A stretch of DNA of 49,172 nt from a virus. The notes under the pieces were generated by a model. That model had not been told where the DNA came from and searched no databases. It saw only the letters and a list, made by a program, of their open reading frames with translations. The stretch spans positions 1 to 49,172 of IMG/VR virus record IMGVR_UViG_3300011969_000002; one strand, written 5' to 3'. The position numbers and the translations under genes are program-made. Positions 7,960 through 44,330 of the stretch are shown here, piece by piece (within the stretch, counting starts at the first letter, position 1; every line of letters begins with the position of its first letter).

Positions 7960-8027
7960 GTTGCCTCCAAGATCGTTGTCGGTCTGCCCGTGCACGCCGG
8001 TGCGCATGCGGGGCTGTTCATTGGCTT

Positions 8028-8070
8028 ACGCTAGAGCGCGAGTGTGCTCCGTGGAGTGTGACACGCCACG
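8028..8070 (-). promoter_or_regulatory. 43-bp conserved upstream element, copy 2
   Basis: Matches 1514-1556 at 40 of 43 bases. On the minus strand it contains GTGGCGTGTCACACTCCAC, an almost perfect 19-bp dyad, then CGCGCTCTAGCGTAAG with TAGCGT as a possible -10. It lies in the 115-base gap between portal and scaffold, so transcription from it would drive scaffold, decoration and capsid, the highest-demand head genes. Confidence 0.65.
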
Positions 8071-9703: not shown

Positions 9704-9728
9704 GAGGGGCCTCCGTCGTCATTGTGCC

Positions 9729-9742
9729 GTGTGGCACGCCAC
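9729..9742. promoter_or_regulatory. GTGTGG dyad before the portal gene
   Basis: GTGTGGCACGCCAC in the 105-base gap between large terminase and portal: arms GTGG and CCAC around a CACG centre. Minus strand reads GTGGCGTGCCACACGGCAC. Same family as the sites at 3986, 16266, 19022 and 38015. Confidence 0.5.
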
Positions 9743-9808
9743 GAGAGACACCGTATCGGGCCAGTGTGGGAAAAGGGTCGCGCCACTTCAGCAACAGTTC
9801 TGCAACGC

Positions 9809-16170: not shown

Positions 16171-16265
16171 CTGATGCTCTCTTTCCATGGGCCTCACCTG
16201 TCGGGCAGACAGTGGGCGGTGGTCCCAGATGCCTGGGTGCATCTCTGATCATGGCACAAACTGGA

Positions 16266-16285
16266 GCGTGTGGTAAGCCACACGC
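16266..16285. promoter_or_regulatory. Perfect GCGTGTGG-TAAG-CCACACGC dyad
   Basis: In the 159-base gap upstream of the 16170 gene. The arms are perfect 8-mers around TAAG, and the plus strand goes on CCACAA after the right arm. Best intergenic member of the motif family also seen at 1542, 3986, 8056, 9729, 19022 and 38015. Suggests binding of a dimeric regulator near a promoter serving the 16170-15212 genes. Confidence 0.6.
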
Positions 16286-16329
16286 CACAACAATGTGGAA
16301 AGTACTCGCAGGGACCACTTTTCGCATGG

Positions 16330-16569
16330 TCAGCTGCGGGCGAACAGGTGGTGCTTCAGGCAGTCGATGCCGAACTGCAGCAGACCCAGATCACGCCACC
16401 TCGGGGTGTGGTTCGACGCGTACATCCGCACGTAAGGCGCCCCGTCGATGCCCACGGACTCGACAACGAGGACCCACCCGGTGATCAGGCCCTTCTCCGC
16501 CGGTTCGTCAGCGTGGTCCTGCAGGGTTTTGGTGATCGCCGCTTCCAGGGCGCCGGACTGCCCGCTCAC
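16330..16569 (-). CDS. Small protein downstream of dNMP kinase
   Basis: 79 residues (MSGQSGALEAAITKTLQDHA...). An N-terminal helix is followed by GWVLVVESVGIDGAPYVRMY and a C-terminal LQFGIDCLKHHL. The DGxPYVRMYASN-like pattern recurs in unrelated actinophages, but no function is known. ATG overlaps the kinase stop by 4 bases. Confidence 0.6.
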   Translation of the reverse strand: MSGQSGALEAAITKTLQDHADEPAEKGLITGWVLVVESVGIDGAPYVRMYASNHTPRWRDLGLLQFGIDCLKHHLFARS

Positions 16570-21056: not shown

Positions 21057-21250
21057 GCCGGGACCGCGACTGTCTGAAAGGTGAAGCCGACGCGGGTCTT
21101 GTCAGTGGCAGCGTCGTAGTCGGCGGTGACGGCGGTGAGCCACTCACCGAGGAGGTTCGGGCCTTTGACTTCTCCCACAATGTGGGTGACATCTCCCGGG
21201 TAAGTGGCGAACCGGGTTGCTGCTGGGGACGTGGTCATGAGCGTTGCCAT
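21053..21250 (-). CDS. Small early protein behind an operator-like site
   Basis: 65 residues (MATLMTTSPAATRFATYPGD...), with AGGAG 6 bases upstream of ATG 21248-21250. Strand-rich; no family recognised. The operator-like 26-mer at 21293-21318 ends 43 bases upstream, so this may be the first gene of a repressor-controlled transcript. Confidence 0.6.
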   Translation of the reverse strand: MATLMTTSPAATRFATYPGDVTHIVGEVKGPNLLGEWLTAVTADYDAATDKTRVGFTFQTVAVPA

Positions 21251-21399
21251 GGGGTGCTCCTGGGCTTGGAGTGGGTGTGTTCTTGGATGGTAGCGGATAA
21301 GTGCGCTACGTAGCGCACAATGGACACGACAAAGTTGCGGGTGTCCCGGCGGGCGCACCGGACGAGCTCTCGGGCGTGGTCGGTCCAGGTTGGGATCAT
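21235..21399 (-). CDS. Possible small protein overlapping an operator-like site
   Basis: 54 residues, MIPTWTDHARELVRCARRDT at the start. ATG 21397-21399 overlaps the VRR-NUC stop (ATGA), the coupling used through this operon. The frame runs through the palindrome at 21301-21318 and 16 bases into the next gene. It could be a real gene or a chance frame. Confidence 0.4.
   Translation of the reverse strand: MIPTWTDHARELVRCARRDTRNFVVSIVRYVAHLSATIQEHTHSKPRSTPWQRS
21293..21318. promoter_or_regulatory. Operator-like 26-mer, mid-operon copy
   Basis: GCGGATAA followed by the perfect 18-bp palindrome GTGCGCTACGTAGCGCAC (21301-21318). Matches 32021-32046 at 23 of 26 and 32877-32902 at 20 of 26 bases. 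Likely bound by the phage repressor or Cro-like protein; it would control transcription into 21250 and beyond. Confidence 0.65.
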
Positions 21400-27166: not shown

Positions 27167-27375
27167 GAGCACGCCTCGCAGATGTAGTCGCCGTCGTCGG
27201 TGCGGGCGATCATGTCGCCTTGGTCCATGGCGTTGCCGCACCCGTCGCACTCGGAGTCGAACCGGGCCGGGAAGCGCGCCGTGATGACGTACTCAGGTAC
27301 TGGTGGCTTGGGTGCGTGGTTTCGGCAGGCGCACTGGTCGACGGGCAGGTCGGAGAGTTCGCAGCGGACGCTCAC
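27163..27375 (-). CDS. Small zinc-ribbon-like protein
   Basis: 70 residues from GTG 27373-27375, overlapping the ParB-like stop (GTGA). ECDGCGNAMDQGDMIARTDD, then YICEACS, makes a four-Cys ribbon; CELSDLPVDQCACRNH adds three N-terminal Cys. No function assigned. Confidence 0.65.
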   Translation of the reverse strand: MSVRCELSDLPVDQCACRNHAPKPPVPEYVITARFPARFDSECDGCGNAMDQGDMIARTDDGDYICEACS

Positions 27376-28499
27376 GACGCGTCGCCCATGAGCTCGAGCT
27401 CGGCGGGGGACCACTCGTACCCGAAGACCGTGCCCAGGGTGTGCCGCCAACCTTTGGTGTGGGTCTGACGCCACGCGGACGCGGACCGGGCCAGGTCCAT
27501 GTCGCGTTGCAGGCCGCCGATGACATCCAGGGCGATCACAGCCTGGGGCAGGGTCATGCCGCGGATCCGCCGCTCGTAACCGGCACCGAGGACCTTGGTC
27601 ATGATGGCCGGGTCGTAAAACATCGCCTGGGTTGCCTGGTGCACGCGTGCCCGAGCGATGGTCAACGCGATGTCGGGGTCGCCTTCGGTGATGACCTCGG
27701 CGAGGTGCTGGTGGCGGCAGCGGGCTGCGGTGTCGAGGGTGCGGAGCAGGGTCGCGCGGGCGGTGCGGCCTTCGGGGATCTGGTTGACCTGCTCGGGGGT
27801 GGCCTCGGTCGGTGCGCTCTTGGTGACGGCTGGTTCCGCTGGGGGAGGGTTGTCGGCGGCTTCCTTGGCCCGGGCGATGTCACCCTTGGCCTGGTTGAGC
27901 TTCCAGGACCAGTCGCGGGTCCCGACCGCTTTGGCGAGCTCTTCGACGACTCCCAGGTCTGTGAACGCTGCTAGCTCCAGGGCGTCAGTGATGGTCAACT
28001 GGCCGTGGTCGACACCGGTGCGGGCCTGCTCAGGCAGGTGCGCGATGGACAGCCGGCCTTCGACGTAGGTGCGGGTCCGGCCGAGCTTCTTCGCGATCAG
28101 GGTCGGGGTGTAGTTCGGGAACTCCATGAGCGCCTGGTACCCGTCGGCCTCTTCGGTGACGGTCAGGTCCTTGCGGTGCCCGTTCTCGATGAGCATCGTC
28201 TCGAGCTGCTTCTCGGGGGTGTCCAGGTCATGGCGGATGATGCACGGCACGGTGTCGAGTCCGGCGTCGACGGCTCCGGCGAGGCGGCGGTGTCCGGCGA
28301 TGAGCGTGTACCGGTACGAGGCCTTCAGGGGTGCGGCGACGACCAGGGGTTCGATGATCCCGGCCTCTTTGATGGACGCGGCGAGCTCTTCCATCTTGGC
28401 TGCGGTGCCGAGGTCGTGGCGGGCGTTGCGGGGGTGGGGTGCGATGGACGCAACGGCGATCTCGAGGAACGTGGTTTTGTGCACGGCGGTCTTGGGCAT
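27372..28499 (-). CDS. ParB/KorB-like protein
   Basis: 375 residues. ParB N-terminal domain: PHPRNARHD, SIKEAGIIEPLVVA, LIAGHRRLAGAVDAGLDTVP (ParB box II GHRR). An HTH follows (TPTLIAKKLGRTRTYVEGRL) and a helical C-terminus with a Pro/Ala/Glu linker at about 230-260. Phage ParB-like proteins act in partition, as nucleases or as regulators; no ParA is seen. CTP binding through GHRR is possible. ATG 28497-28499. Confidence 0.8.
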   Translation of the reverse strand: MPKTAVHKTTFLEIAVASIAPHPRNARHDLGTAAKMEELAASIKEAGIIEPLVVAAPLKASYRYTLIAGHRRLAGAVDAGLDTVPCIIRHDLDTPEKQLETMLIENGHRKDLTVTEEADGYQALMEFPNYTPTLIAKKLGRTRTYVEGRLSIAHLPEQARTGVDHGQLTITDALELAAFTDLGVVEELAKAVGTRDWSWKLNQAKGDIARAKEAADNPPPAEPAVTKSAPTEATPEQVNQIPEGRTARATLLRTLDTAARCRHQHLAEVITEGDPDIALTIARARVHQATQAMFYDPAIMTKVLGAGYERRIRGMTLPQAVIALDVIGGLQRDMDLARSASAWRQTHTKGWRHTLGTVFGYEWSPAELELMGDAS

Positions 28500-31811: not shown

Positions 31812-32000
31812 TTAAGCGGCTGCGCGGTCGGCGAGGTATGCGTCGATCGCGGCACGTGTGACGCGGCGGGTCCTGCGGATCTTGATCGCAGGTAGCTCGC
31901 CGGCCTTGACGAGCGCGTATGCCGTGGATCTGCCGACGCCCAGGAGCAGGCCGGCGGCGGCGATGGTCATGGTCAGTGGCTCTGGGGGTGAGGCGGTCAT
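31812..32000 (-). CDS. Excisionase-like HTH protein
   Basis: 62 residues. LTMTIAAAGLLLGVGRSTAY, then LVKAGELPAIKIRRTRRVTR, gives the helix-turn-helix/wing pattern of the MerR-like HTH_17 domain found in phage excisionases. It would bind attP and direct the integrase to excision. ATG overlaps the Cro-like stop; an operator-like site ends 21 bases upstream. Confidence 0.75.
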   Translation of the reverse strand: MTASPPEPLTMTIAAAGLLLGVGRSTAYALVKAGELPAIKIRRTRRVTRAAIDAYLADRAAA

Positions 32001-32329
32001 GCGGCTGTGGTCTCCTTGGTGCGGATATCTGCGTTACGTAGCGCACTTGCGACACGACGAAGCAGTGCCCGTGGGTCGATGTTCAGGACGATGGAGATGG
32101 CTAGGAGGGTTCTCTCCGAGGGTTGCCGGCGGCCGCTGACGATGTCGGACACCATCTGCTTGGACAGGTTGGCTTCGGAGGCGATGTCGACCTGGCGTTT
32201 GCCGGCCCGGATCATTGCCTGACGCAGGATCAGCGGGTCGACCTGGAACGCGACCCGGCCGAAGTCGGTGTGTACCCACAGGATCTGACGCGTCGACAGT
32301 TGGTGGCGCGTCGCGTTGAGGGTGGTCAC
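31997..32329 (-). CDS. Cro-like XRE-family repressor
   Basis: 110 residues from GTG 32327-32329 (GTGA overlap). The HTH lies at about 40-90: LRQAMIRAGKRQVDIASEAN, LSKQMVSDIVSGRRQPSERT. It is the third gene of the leftward early transcript, as Cro would be. The final codons overlap the operator-like sequence at 32021-32046. Confidence 0.75.
   Translation of the reverse strand: MTTLNATRHQLSTRQILWVHTDFGRVAFQVDPLILRQAMIRAGKRQVDIASEANLSKQMVSDIVSGRRQPSERTLLAISIVLNIDPRALLRRVASALRNADIRTKETTAA
32021..32046. promoter_or_regulatory. Operator-like 26-mer before the excisionase-like gene
   Basis: GCGGATATCTGCGTTACGTA then GCGCAC, in the 3' end of the Cro-like gene. Same orientation as the sites at 21293 and 32877. 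It ends 21 bases upstream of ATG 31998-32000 on the minus strand. Confidence 0.6.
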
Positions 32330-32496: not shown

Positions 32497-32804
32497 GCTG
32501 ACACCTCATGAGCAACCTCATCGGCGTAGAAGCCGTTGTGGTTCTTGGTGCTGCGGTGCCACTCGCGCACGATCTGGTCGGCGGGCAGGGTGGTAAGGCG
32601 GGCGTGCGGCAGGTGGATCTCGACGTGCTCACCACAGGTGCTGCAGATGCCGTGGTCGACTGTGGGGGGCTGGCCCAAGTAGTCGGGGTCGTCCTCGATG
32701 TGGATCGGGAGGCCAGCGTGCCACGGCGGGAGAGGGCAGGGCTTCCCGTCGATGAGAAGGCCGCACGAGGTCATGACGTTCGGGCCGGTGATCGGGGTGC
32801 TCAT
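32493..32804 (-). CDS. First gene of the leftward early operon
   Basis: 103 residues (MSTPITGPNVMTSCGLLIDG...). CGLLIDGKPCPLPPWHAGLP and HGICSTCGEHVEIH suggest a zinc site. ATG 32802-32804 has AAAGG upstream. The first gene left of the divergent control region, so likely the first one expressed when repression is lifted. Function unknown. Confidence 0.65.
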   Translation of the reverse strand: MSTPITGPNVMTSCGLLIDGKPCPLPPWHAGLPIHIEDDPDYLGQPPTVDHGICSTCGEHVEIHLPHARLTTLPADQIVREWHRSTKNHNGFYADEVAHEVSA

Positions 32805-32876
32805 ATCGGTCTACCTTTCAGTTGCGCCGGGAACGTGGTCTTGTTCCTTGGGCTTCGGCGCCATATCCGAACTGTA

Positions 32877-32902
32877 GCGGATAAATGCGTACCGTAGCGG
32901 AT
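32877..32902. promoter_or_regulatory. Operator-like 26-mer in the divergent control region
   Basis: GCGGATAAATGCGTACCGTA then GCGGAT, with a direct repeat GTAGCGG at 32874-32880 and 32894-32900 (20-bp period, so on one face of the helix). It lies 73 bases upstream of the 32804 gene and 160 bases upstream of the repressor gene, where a repressor would control both directions. The region is AT-rich beside it (ATTATTTACAAAG). Confidence 0.65.
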
Positions 32903-32940: not shown

Positions 32941-33027
32941 TTGACCTGCGAAAACACACGCCTGTAAGACCCTCGTGCCTAACGTAAATCGGAGCAAACT
33001 GCGCTGCGTTGCGGACTTGTTCGCAAC
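32941..33027 (+). promoter_or_regulatory. Probable repressor promoter and inverted repeat
   Basis: TTGACC (32941-32946), 16 bases, TGTAAG (32963-32968) gives a fair -35/-10 pair pointing to the repressor gene. Downstream, GTTGCG (33008-33013) and CGCAAC (33022-33027) form an inverted repeat that could be an operator or mRNA hairpin. No convincing leftward promoter hexamers were found. Confidence 0.45.
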
Positions 33028-33062: not shown

Positions 33063-33527
33063 ATGGTCGTTATGACTGACATACCTCGCCCACCAGAGCA
33101 GCCCGCCTGGGCCAAGCTCCTCCAGGAGCAGCGCCTTCAGCGCGGGTACTCAGCGCGCAAAGCCGCACTGCTCGCCGGACTCTCCGACTCCTTCTGGGGG
33201 ATGGCCGAACGCGGCTACAAGCCAGTGCGAGGCAAACCTTCGCGGCCGATGCTGCCCAGCCGTCGGACCCTCATCCAGATGACCGAAGCGTTGCGGCTCT
33301 CACCCGCATCGACGAACGCAATCCTGACCGCGGCCGGCTACAAGGCCGTCCCTGCCATCGATGAGCAGCCTGACCCACGAGCCGAGGTCGACCTACGCGG
33401 TTTGAACCAGTCCGACATAGTCCTTTTGAATGCTATTTCACGGCATCTGCGTGACAACAGGCATTCTGGTAGTGCACACTCCGTTCATCCACGGCTTGCC
33501 TCAAACGGGGACGAGGTGGATCGATGA
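33063..33527 (+). CDS. XRE-family immunity repressor
   Basis: 154 residues; ATG 33063 or 33072, ribosome site weak. HTH at about 15-75: WAKLLQEQRLQRGYSARKAA, LLAGLSDSFWGMAERGYKP, RRTLIQMTEALRLSP. C-terminal part (EVDLRGLNQSDIVLLNAISR) is probably for dimerisation. It is divergent from the early operon and next to integrase, the usual place of the phage repressor. No LexA-like protease motif is visible. Confidence 0.75.
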   Translation: MVVMTDIPRPPEQPAWAKLLQEQRLQRGYSARKAALLAGLSDSFWGMAERGYKPVRGKPSRPMLPSRRTLIQMTEALRLSPASTNAILTAAGYKAVPAIDEQPDPRAEVDLRGLNQSDIVLLNAISRHLRDNRHSGSAHSVHPRLASNGDEVDR

Positions 33528-33843: not shown

Positions 33844-35085
33844 ATGGCTGCACGCAAGCAGCTGCGCCGCTCCAACGGTGAAGGGACCGTCTTCCAGCGC
33901 GCCTCCGACTCCCGGTGGATCGCCCGGGTCACCTACGTCGACGAAGCCACCGGCCGGCAACGCCACAAGGAACAGTCGGCCCGGACCGAAGGTGAGGCCC
34001 ACGACAAGCTCACCACGCTCAAGTCTGACCTGCGCTCGACCGGTGGCCTGCCGGAAGGGCGAACCCCGACGGTGGGGGAGTGGCTGACGCACTGGCTGGC
34101 CACGTCAGCGAAGAGCCGTACCAGCGAGAACACCTATGACGCGTACCGGTCGATCACTACTCACCACCTGATCCCGCTCCTGGGCAGGCGCAAGCTCGAC
34201 ACGTCCCTGCGGGCCCATCACGTCGAGTCCGCCTACGCGATCATGGCTGCCGGGCGGCCGTGCGGTCGCGCTGACTGCCCCCAGGCCGACGGCAAGCACT
34301 GCCCGAAGTGCCGGCCGCCGCTCGCGCCGAGCTCGGTCCTGAAGGCGCACCGGATCCTGTGCCGGGCACTGAGGGTCGCAGCCCGGGACTACGCCACCCT
34401 GGACCCGAATGTGGTCGACGCACCATCGGTGCGCAAGGCTCGCGGTGATTCCTACACCATGGTGGAGGTCACCAAGATCGTGGCCGAGCTGGCCACACGT
34501 CGCAACGGGGTGCGGTGGCTGATCGCCCTAGTGCTGGGCATGCGCCAAGGTGAGTGTCTGGGCCTGTGGTGGTCCGACATCGACCTGGTCACTGGGGTCG
34601 TCACGGTCCAGGCCAGGAACCATCGGCGCAAGGGTGGCGGGGTGGTCCGGCGCCCGGTCAAGAACGACGACTCGATCCGTGACATCGCCCTGCCGGACGA
34701 GCTCGTGGCCGCGCTGAAGGAACACCGCAAAGCACAGATCACCGAACGCCTCGCAGCCGGACCGAAGTGGGTCGACGACGGCGGGTGGGTGTTCACCAAC
34801 GAGCTCGGCCTTGGCATGCGACCGGAGGCGGACCTGAAGGACTGGTACGCCATGTGCGAGGCGGCCGGGGTGCGCCGGGGACGGCAGCACTCAGGGACCA
34901 GGCATACCGTGGCGACGCTGCTGCTCGAGGCGGAGATCAACCCGAGGATCGTCATGGAGCTCCTCGGCCACTCGCAGATCGCGGTCACGTTGAACACCTA
35001 CTCCCACGTCAAGGCCAACGTCGTCCGCTCGGCCGTCGACGGGCTCGCGGCGTCGGTGTTTGGGTCGGCCAAGGCCACGAAATGA
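33844..35085 (+). CDS. int: Tyrosine-type integrase
   Basis: 413 residues. Arm-binding N-terminus (RRSNGEGTVFQRASDSRWIA), SAM-like core-binding domain (about 76-190) and catalytic domain. Catalytic set: Arg234 (GMRQGE), Lys273 region, Arg353 and His354 (GTRHT), His376 (LLGHSQ) and Tyr386 (LNTYSH). A Cys4 insert (C140, C145, C153, C156) sits in the core-binding domain, as in some actinobacterial integrases. In box II the His is at R-4 (HSGTR) rather than the usual R-3. The gene points to attP, 120 bases downstream. Confidence 0.9.
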   Translation: MAARKQLRRSNGEGTVFQRASDSRWIARVTYVDEATGRQRHKEQSARTEGEAHDKLTTLKSDLRSTGGLPEGRTPTVGEWLTHWLATSAKSRTSENTYDAYRSITTHHLIPLLGRRKLDTSLRAHHVESAYAIMAAGRPCGRADCPQADGKHCPKCRPPLAPSSVLKAHRILCRALRVAARDYATLDPNVVDAPSVRKARGDSYTMVEVTKIVAELATRRNGVRWLIALVLGMRQGECLGLWWSDIDLVTGVVTVQARNHRRKGGGVVRRPVKNDDSIRDIALPDELVAALKEHRKAQITERLAAGPKWVDDGGWVFTNELGLGMRPEADLKDWYAMCEAAGVRRGRQHSGTRHTVATLLLEAEINPRIVMELLGHSQIAVTLNTYSHVKANVVRSAVDGLAASVFGSAKATK

Positions 35086-35204
35086 CACTAGTTTCTGCAC
35101 TATCGCGGGTACACGAGAGCGGACCTGTGCGCACCGTCACGGATTGTGTTTGTGCTCAATAACTGAATAACCGCAGGTCAGAGTCCGCTACGAAAGTCGT
35201 TTCG

Positions 35205-35254
35205 ATTCACTCGTAATGAATAGGTCATCGGTTCGATTCCGATAGGCGGCTCCA
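35205..35254 (+). other. attP: attP core: 3' half of tRNA-Thr(CGT)
   Basis: The sequence folds as the 3' part of a tRNA: anticodon stem ATTCA/TGAAT with loop CTCGTAA (anticodon CGT, 35212-35214), variable region AGGTC, T arm ATCGG-TTCGATT-CCGAT, acceptor strand AGGCGGC (35244-35250), T and CCA (35251-35254). There is no 5' acceptor strand or D arm, so it is not a full gene. Integration would restore the host tRNA-Thr. The exact crossover cannot be fixed from one sequence. Confidence 0.8.
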
Positions 35255-35262
35255 CGGAAAAG

Positions 35263-35321: not shown

Positions 35322-35699
35322 ATGCCACCAACGACACCACTAGTTGACGACGACAACCCCGAAGTGACTGTCGCCGACCTGGTCATAGCCGCCTTGGCAC
35401 GCAAGGACATGTCGATGCGAGACGCAGCTGAGCGCACCGGGGGCCGGGTGTCGCACTCGCAGATCGCGCGCATCTGCCGGGGCGAGACCACGACGATCCA
35501 ACCCCAGACCTTGCAGGCGTTGTCCGATGCGCTGCGTATCCCCATCAGGCGACTCAGGGAGGCCAACGGGTGGGCGCCGGCCACGGGCCGACCGTTCGTT
35601 CTGCCGGAGCGGGCCGACGAGCTGAGCGTGGCTGAGCGTCGGGTGATCGTGAACATGATCGGGGCACTCCTAGCCGCCCGCGACCGGCAACGCAAGTGA
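35322..35699 (+). CDS. XRE-family HTH protein next to attP
   Basis: 125 residues with GGAGGA 6 bases before the ATG. HTH: VADLVIAALARKDMSMRDAA, GRVSHSQIARICRGETTTIQ, LSDALRIPIRRLREANGW; after it the strand AERRVIVNMIGALLAARDR. Because attP lies between it and integrase, this gene sits at the far prophage end after integration. It may be a second repressor or superinfection factor, inferred from position. Confidence 0.75.
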   Translation: MPPTTPLVDDDNPEVTVADLVIAALARKDMSMRDAAERTGGRVSHSQIARICRGETTTIQPQTLQALSDALRIPIRRLREANGWAPATGRPFVLPERADELSVAERRVIVNMIGALLAARDRQRK

Positions 35700-37992: not shown

Positions 37993-38014
37993 TGTCAGCC
38001 CCTCATCGTGTGTC

Positions 38015-38037
38015 GTGGGGCGTGCTACACGCCACAC
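38015..38037. promoter_or_regulatory. GTGTGG-family dyad before the lysis cassette
   Basis: GTGGGGCGTGCTACACGCCA followed by CAC; dyad GGCGTG-CTA-CACGCC at 38019-38033. In the 94-base gap upstream of the first lysis gene, after the last tail gene, so it would separate tail from lysis expression. Confidence 0.5.
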
Positions 38038-43886: not shown

Positions 43887-44330
43887 TCAGACGGTGGTGG
43901 TGGCTGGTGTGGGCTGGACGGGCACCTTCGCGATGAACGTGGACTGCCCAGCCATTGCCTGGAACTTGTCTAACGGATAACTCGAATCGGCGCGTGTGGC
44001 ACGCCACACGGTGCGACTGTTGCCGATGGTGACCTCGAGGAGCCAGGACCAGACCTCGACGGCGTCGACCAGGGCTTGGCGGCGGGTGTTGATCTGCGCC
44101 TGGGTGGTGCCGTCGATGCGGCAGATGAAGCCGTGCATGCCCCCTTCGAGGACCATCGCGACAGGGAACTCCCCGTCGGCATACGGCGAGTGGGTGGTGA
44201 CCCTGCGCCAGGTACGGTCCGGGGTGGAGATCTCGATGAGGTAGTACCCGGCGGCTTCGGTGACGTCCAACACCACAGCTGATGCGTTGGTGAGGATGCG
44301 GACGCCTACGGCGAGGTCGGGGGTGGTCAT
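43887..44330 (-). CDS. Distal tail (Dit-like) minor tail protein
   Basis: 147 residues directly after the tape measure and overlapping it by 4 bases. VGVRILTNASAVVLDVTEAA and ALVDAVEVWSWLLEVTIGNS form a strand-rich body. Position fits the distal tail protein. The codons NSRTVWRATRA contain a perfect CGTGTGGC-AC-GCCACACG dyad (43993-44010), the same family as the intergenic motif. Confidence 0.6.
   Translation of the reverse strand: MTTPDLAVGVRILTNASAVVLDVTEAAGYYLIEISTPDRTWRRVTTHSPYADGEFPVAMVLEGGMHGFICRIDGTTQAQINTRRQALVDAVEVWSWLLEVTIGNSRTVWRATRADSSYPLDKFQAMAGQSTFIAKVPVQPTPATTTV

Follow-up and report, generated by a model that had tools for sequence, protein, structure and literature searches.

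The 49,172-bp IMG/VR virus record analysed here (referred to as the window) carries three similar 26-bp sequences, one at the junction between a repressor gene and the leftward genes of a phage, one just before its excisionase gene and one 10 kb away. Are they the operators of a single regulator, and if so, of which one? The sequences are located at 32877–32902 (GCGGATAAATGCGTACCGTAGCGGAT), 32021–32046 (GCGGATATCTGCGTTACGTAGCGCAC) and 21293–21318 (GCGGATAAGTGCGCTACGTAGCGCAC), exactly where the preliminary description had placed them. Its pairwise matches (20, 20 and 23 of 26), its distances to the gene starts at 32804, 32000 and 21250 (73, 21 and 43 bp) and the perfect 18-bp palindrome of the third site (21301–21318) are all reproduced. 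The shared consensus needed correction: as literally spaced it has no match, and the correct spacing is GCGGATA-NN-TGCG-N-TACGTAGCG, from which the site at 32877 departs. Two further sites, missed in that description, are found at 32999–33027 (minus strand) and 35116–35144. One precedes the repressor gene and the other is next to attP, positions that make a target set more plausible.

A 234-nt repeat is common to both ends of the window (93% identity), and a related contig of 49,579 bp (G003) is collinear with it across the end junction. On this evidence, the window is judged to be a phage genome that is complete or almost so and was assembled as a circle. Leftward from 32804 are the genes for YqaJ, RecT, a ParB-like protein, a replication initiator, a VRR-NUC nuclease, an exonuclease and a dNMP kinase, followed in the same direction by those for terminase, portal, capsid and tail. 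Rightward of the switch are the repressor candidate, a tyrosine integrase (33844–35085, plus strand; Phage_integrase, E 1e-18) and attP. The attP core (35206–35255, plus strand) is the 3′ part of a tRNA gene and ends with GGCTCCA at 35255; in the alignment of three phages its first bases differ and the rest is identical. From its sequence the gene reads as tRNA-Thr(CGT), which ARAGORN does not confirm, only part of the gene being present. Just past attP, an HTH_3 protein is encoded rightward (35322–35699), with 63% identity in both relatives that carry this switch (G003 and G002); it would sit at the prophage end opposite the integrase.

When all copies from the window and its relatives are aligned, the repeated unit is a 29-bp element composed of three 8-bp half-sites, GTAGCGSA>, <TSCGCTAC and GTAGCGSA> (to be referred to as A, B and C). 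Half-site A is GTAGCGGA in the forward direction and is followed by a 4-bp gap, often TAAG. Half-site B is TGCGCTAC, the reverse complement of the same half-site, and half-site C is GTAGCGCA or GTAGCGGA, again forward. The GCG cores are spaced 11 and 9 bp apart by hand count, which places all three half-sites on the same face of the helix.

Five copies of the element are present in the window. S1 (32874–32902, plus strand; matrix score 45.3) is located at the putative early leftward promoter, with half-site A at 32874–32881, a degenerate B at 32886–32893 and C at 32894–32901. S2 (32018–32046, plus strand; score 38.6) lies entirely inside the 3′ end of the gene for a Cro-like protein, 18 bp before the start codon of xis, and is kept in G003 and G002. 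S3 (21290–21318, plus strand; score 47.1) is positioned 40 bp ahead of the gene whose start is at 21250. S5 (32999–33027, minus strand; score 24.1) is reversed and lies upstream of the repressor gene, and S6 (35116–35144, plus strand; score 22.2) follows the stop codon of the integrase gene and precedes the attP core. The score of S6 is 30.5 in G003 and weaker, 14.8, in G002. Closer to the attP core, the half-site reported near 35187 was found at 35184–35192, as a lone GTAGCGGA on the minus strand (35184–35191). About one chance occurrence per genome is expected for any such 8-mer, but all three phages carry this one, with GA, CA or GG after GTAGCG, and the core CGCTAC is kept in both relatives (TCCGCTAC, TGCGCTAC, CCCGCTAC).

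Two more classes of the element are known from relatives. S4 is found in G003, G002, G005 and G006 and is replaced in the window. S7 occurs solely in G007, where it comes with an inserted gene for a 244-residue zinc-ribbon/HTH-like product in the gap between terminase and portal (L038, 10032–10827), 36 bp upstream of that gene. S1 to S4 and S7 are oriented toward leftward genes, while S5 is flipped, matching the rightward repressor gene. No leftward phage gene follows S6.

The internal symmetry of the element differs among the copies. The 18-bp palindrome of S3 is half-site B joined to C, and it is broken in S1, S5, S6 and S7. Half-sites A and B form a second, wider dyad, best kept in S5 (GTTGCGGACTTGTTCGCAAC, 33008–33027). 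Dyad symmetry between half-sites one turn apart is seen as A–B in S3 and S5 and as B–C in S3. S2 to S5 have an inverted middle half-site. In S1, half-sites A and C are perfect direct repeats 20 bp apart, flanking the degenerate B. In addition, a GACACGA-like block is observed just past half-site C in S2, S3, S4 and S7 (21290–21334 and 32018–32062 in the window) and is missing at S1, S5 and S6; it may serve as an additional binding site or indicate that those copies arose from one another.

The sites stand out clearly from chance. A scoring matrix was trained on the relatives only, with no window copies and no copies of S5 or S6. A scan of the window with this matrix finds the five sites (S3, S1, S2, S5 and S6) with scores of 22–47, and the same procedure finds six sites in G003. 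Over 4 million matched random positions the best score is 11.6, far below the values for the three originally described sites (47.1, 45.3 and 38.6). A pattern scan of IMG/VR gives matches solely in contigs of this phage group. The same scan of 257 Gb of bacterial genomes gives 13 scattered single matches in unrelated taxa, which is the chance level, and as a result no host prophage was identified there.

Every site is kept in related phage contigs, and the conservation is concentrated in the element. In S1, 28 of the 29 columns are identical in three phages, compared to 118 of 225 in the remaining intergenic region. Only 3 of 29 columns vary in S3 among six phages, against 21/40 and 19/40 in its flanks, and only 1 of 29 in S4, against 10/40 and 24/40. 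The dyad of S5 has 17 of 20 columns conserved. Could the similarity be due to chance or to shared coding constraints? The location of S2 in the 3′ end of the Cro-like gene would fit the latter. However, S2, S3 and S4 are read in different frames, which rules out coding constraint as the cause of conservation, and S1 and S5 are intergenic and still conserved in relatives. Together with scores far above the random maximum, these observations refute chance or coding similarity, the probability of which is close to nil.

In the transcribed direction, half-site A of S1, S3, S4 and S7 has CTAC or CTAT at its end, and this supplies the first bases of a TAnnnT hexamer. At S1 this putative −10 hexamer is TACAGT (32871–32876, minus strand), the same in the window, G003 and G002 (3/3), and it would belong to the early leftward promoter. 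At S3 it is TACCAT (21287–21292, minus strand), identical in 6/6 phages. The corresponding hexamers are TATGCT in 4/4 copies of S4 and TACGAT in the single copy of S7 (1/1). The predicted leftward transcripts would have leaders of roughly 25–75 nt, and the element is placed where a bound protein would cover the promoter. A scan of the switch region with the sigma-70 consensus finds no full promoter and no −35 match. The −35 element is missing from many actinobacterial promoters.

No copy of S2, S5 or S6 has a TAnnnT hexamer at the position used by the others. Since this hexamer is absent from its expected position, S2 is not a second promoter, before xis, of the kind proposed for S1 and S3. 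It may instead present a block to passing RNA polymerase, or act near the ribosome-binding site of xis. On the rightward side, the hexamer TATGGT is located just 5′ of the repressor ATG at 33075 in the window, which makes a leaderless repressor transcript from this ATG possible, but neither G003 nor G002 has kept this hexamer.

Four candidate binding proteins are encoded in the window, all of them conserved in relatives. The repressor candidate (33063–33527, plus strand) has an XRE-type HTH (HTH_31, E 0.0005, below the Pfam cut-off) and shows 87% identity in G003 and 79% in G002, with conservation starting from the ATG at 33075. The Cro-like protein (31997–32329, minus strand; HTH_3, E 2e-10) has predicted-fold matches that include phage 434 Cro. 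Strong conservation of both proteins is seen in G003 and G002, no further contigs with this switch having been found, and the HTH of each protein is invariant across the three phages. Their predicted folds resemble XRE regulators, and the closest folds of both include restriction-modification controller proteins. These predicted structures (mean pLDDT 72–73, from three-row alignments) support the HTH fold and do not separate the candidate binders. Excisionase (Xis, 31812–32000, minus strand), with a MerR-like HTH (HTH_17, E 2e-13) and matches to PHROG excisionase families, is less conserved, at 74% and 60% identity. The ParB-like protein (27372–28499, minus strand), a minor candidate with ParB_N and HTH_ParB domains, is kept in all relatives that cover its gene.

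By tblastn, the repressor candidate has no relative in 50,697 phage records; bacterial genomes gave nothing usable, with one weak match in 395 genomes of one class, and the Cro-like protein has no match among named phages. Two contigs with a related YqaJ and another immunity region (L061 and L062) lack S sites, and neither has a detected match to the repressor or the Cro-like protein. The S sites are thereby tied to this switch, an association that does not discriminate among repressor, Cro-like protein and Xis.

The explanation we favor, with somewhat better than even confidence, is that the elements are dispersed operators of a temperate switch, bound most likely by the 33063 repressor and possibly also by the Cro-like protein. 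Copies are located at the repressor, early, excision and 10-kb-distant genes and at the integration site, and they are kept in relatives; it is therefore likely that a single DNA-binding protein uses them to govern the entire choice of life cycle. In S1 and S3, as in the S4 and S7 of relatives, the element would span the −35 position and extend into the first −10 bases, and we infer that binding there would silence the leftward promoters, both early and middle. Binding at the reversed S5 would provide autoregulation of the repressor gene, binding at S2 would limit read-through or translation into xis, and binding at S6 would couple the same protein to attP. The target set of the preliminary description, with its proposed reach from the immunity region to xis and to an internal promoter far away, is well supported by the conservation and by the −10 hexamers fused to the sites at 32877 and 21293, whereas for the binder, taken there to be the repressor or Cro, all four proteins are candidates. 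The flipped orientation of S5, with the other promoter sites facing leftward genes, counts for operators of this kind. Also in their favor are the scores well beyond the random maximum, the excess conservation of S1, S3 and S4 over their surroundings, the TAnnnT hexamer in each copy of S1, S3, S4 and S7, the conservation and HTH-type folds of the repressor and the Cro-like protein, the lack of S sites in L061 and L062 and the arrival of S7 with an inserted gene. Counting against them, a plain repressor would not be expected to have a site close to attP, the missing −35 would also suit an activator, and the middle half-site of S1 is degenerate.

The copy beside attP keeps open a dual role for Xis similar to that of Apl or Cox. 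Xis would then be the binder, acting in excision at attP (S6 and 35184), on the switch promoters (S1 and S5) and on its own gene (S2). S6 and the conserved half-site in the attP arm fit such a protein, as does the position of S2 directly before xis. The outer half-sites of S1 are perfect direct repeats, and the spacing of the cores by about one helical turn is that of Apl, which binds att and the pR–pL region (PMC7498355). On the other hand, Apl-type sites are direct repeats, whereas S2 to S5 have their middle half-site inverted, the copy at attP scores lowest in the set and the distant S3 highest, and Xis is less conserved than the repressor and the Cro-like protein. We consider Xis a rather unlikely binder. 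A positive regulator is a different matter, and we regard it as quite unlikely: a phage protein bound between −35 and −10 would turn on early and middle promoters that have no −35 of their own. MerR-type and controller-protein sites are located in the promoter spacer, where the present element is also found, and controller proteins are among the folds nearest to both HTH proteins; the lack of a −35 match at the switch points the same way. However, many actinobacterial promoters would lack this element in any case, half-site A enters the −10 itself, which favors blocking, and no −10 accompanies S5 ahead of the repressor gene or S6 next to attP.

The perfect palindrome of S3 also brings the ParB-like protein into consideration, as its domains and conservation would suit a protein that acts on a parS- or KorB-like site to silence promoters close by. 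A conserved palindrome at each site would mark such a system, but the palindrome is missing from most site classes, even from S1, which is among the best conserved, and this reading was set aside. Moreover, L062 codes for a segment related to the ParB-like protein (47% over about 200 residues) and has no S site in the 15 kb scanned, and no ParA was recognized among the scanned proteins. Silencing by the ParB-like protein is highly improbable.

An alignment places the position of S4 in the window at 16250–16330 (minus strand), where a promoter-sized block with the dyad CGTGTGGTAAGCCACACG (16267–16284) is found instead. This allele is shared by the window, G007, L051, L053 and L054. The dyad belongs to a second repeat family of the late region, GTGGCGTGTNRCANNCCAC, which shows the dyad GTGGnGTGTnACACnCCAC in its best copies. 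The family is located at 1511–1556, 8025–8070, 9722–9745, 16267–16290, 37995–38036 and 43993–44010; one of these copies replaces S4. G003 has the family at the corresponding places, as do G007, G002 and G005 in part, and two copies are followed by CTCTAGCGTRAG, which contains TAGCGT. They are possibly late promoters or operators of another regulator. A bolder proposal, which we hold only tentatively and consider rather unlikely, is that one protein and one three-half-site element both hold the lytic promoters and gate recombination at attP (S6 and 35184), and that the element moves as a cassette, S7 having been gained with its gene and S4 exchanged for the late-region dyad family. The S4 exchange and the S7 gain suggest that a phage may add genes to the switch, or drop them, by changing one 29-bp element. 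If one protein binds the set, it would define the immunity specificity of a phage group without characterized relatives, and it would offer a compact system (five sites, short proteins) for repression, excision and attP occupancy with one motif.

How does this set compare with known switches? As in C1/Cro-type systems, sites occupy the region from which the repressor and the early lytic genes diverge, and they overlap the predicted early promoter. The likeness to phiC31 is one of arrangement. In this actinobacterial phage, the repressor binds conserved inverted repeats, dispersed dyad sites at early promoters. The present sites are also dispersed dyads at early promoters; the copies are more numerous in phiC31.

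With the sites of Apl (phage 186) and Cox (P2), the present set shares a motif found both at attP (S6 and 35184) and at switch promoters (S1 and S5), with units about one turn apart. The units of Apl are direct repeats of 6 bp, five to seven to an array (PMC7498355). Unlike those arrays, the present set has an inverted middle unit, and strong copies are located 10 kb away at internal promoters.

Functional parallels are known among dispersed operators. The C1 repressor of phage P1 has 22 dispersed 17-bp operators (PMC8546580), and the proposal made here is likewise that one switch protein, through operators scattered over the genome, shuts off lytic genes far from the immunity region. The P1 sites are asymmetric and AT-rich (ATTGCTCTAATAAATTT), in contrast to 29 bp with three GC-rich half-sites here, and only about five to six copies are present, one of them beside attP; the tblastn search described above likewise gives no sign of a C1-related repressor. 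The stoperators of cluster A mycobacteriophages (L5, TipsytheTRex) are 13-bp asymmetric sites, more than twenty in number and bound by a repressor monomer (PMC9283540). Like the present sites, they are found in promoters and elsewhere and are oriented with transcription, and a promoterless site such as S2 could act as a stoperator in their manner. The present elements differ from them in their internal dyads, their length of 29 bp and their number, five in the window and six in G003. While it lacks the site features that define either system, the set works like the dispersed operators of P1 C1 and the cluster A phages.
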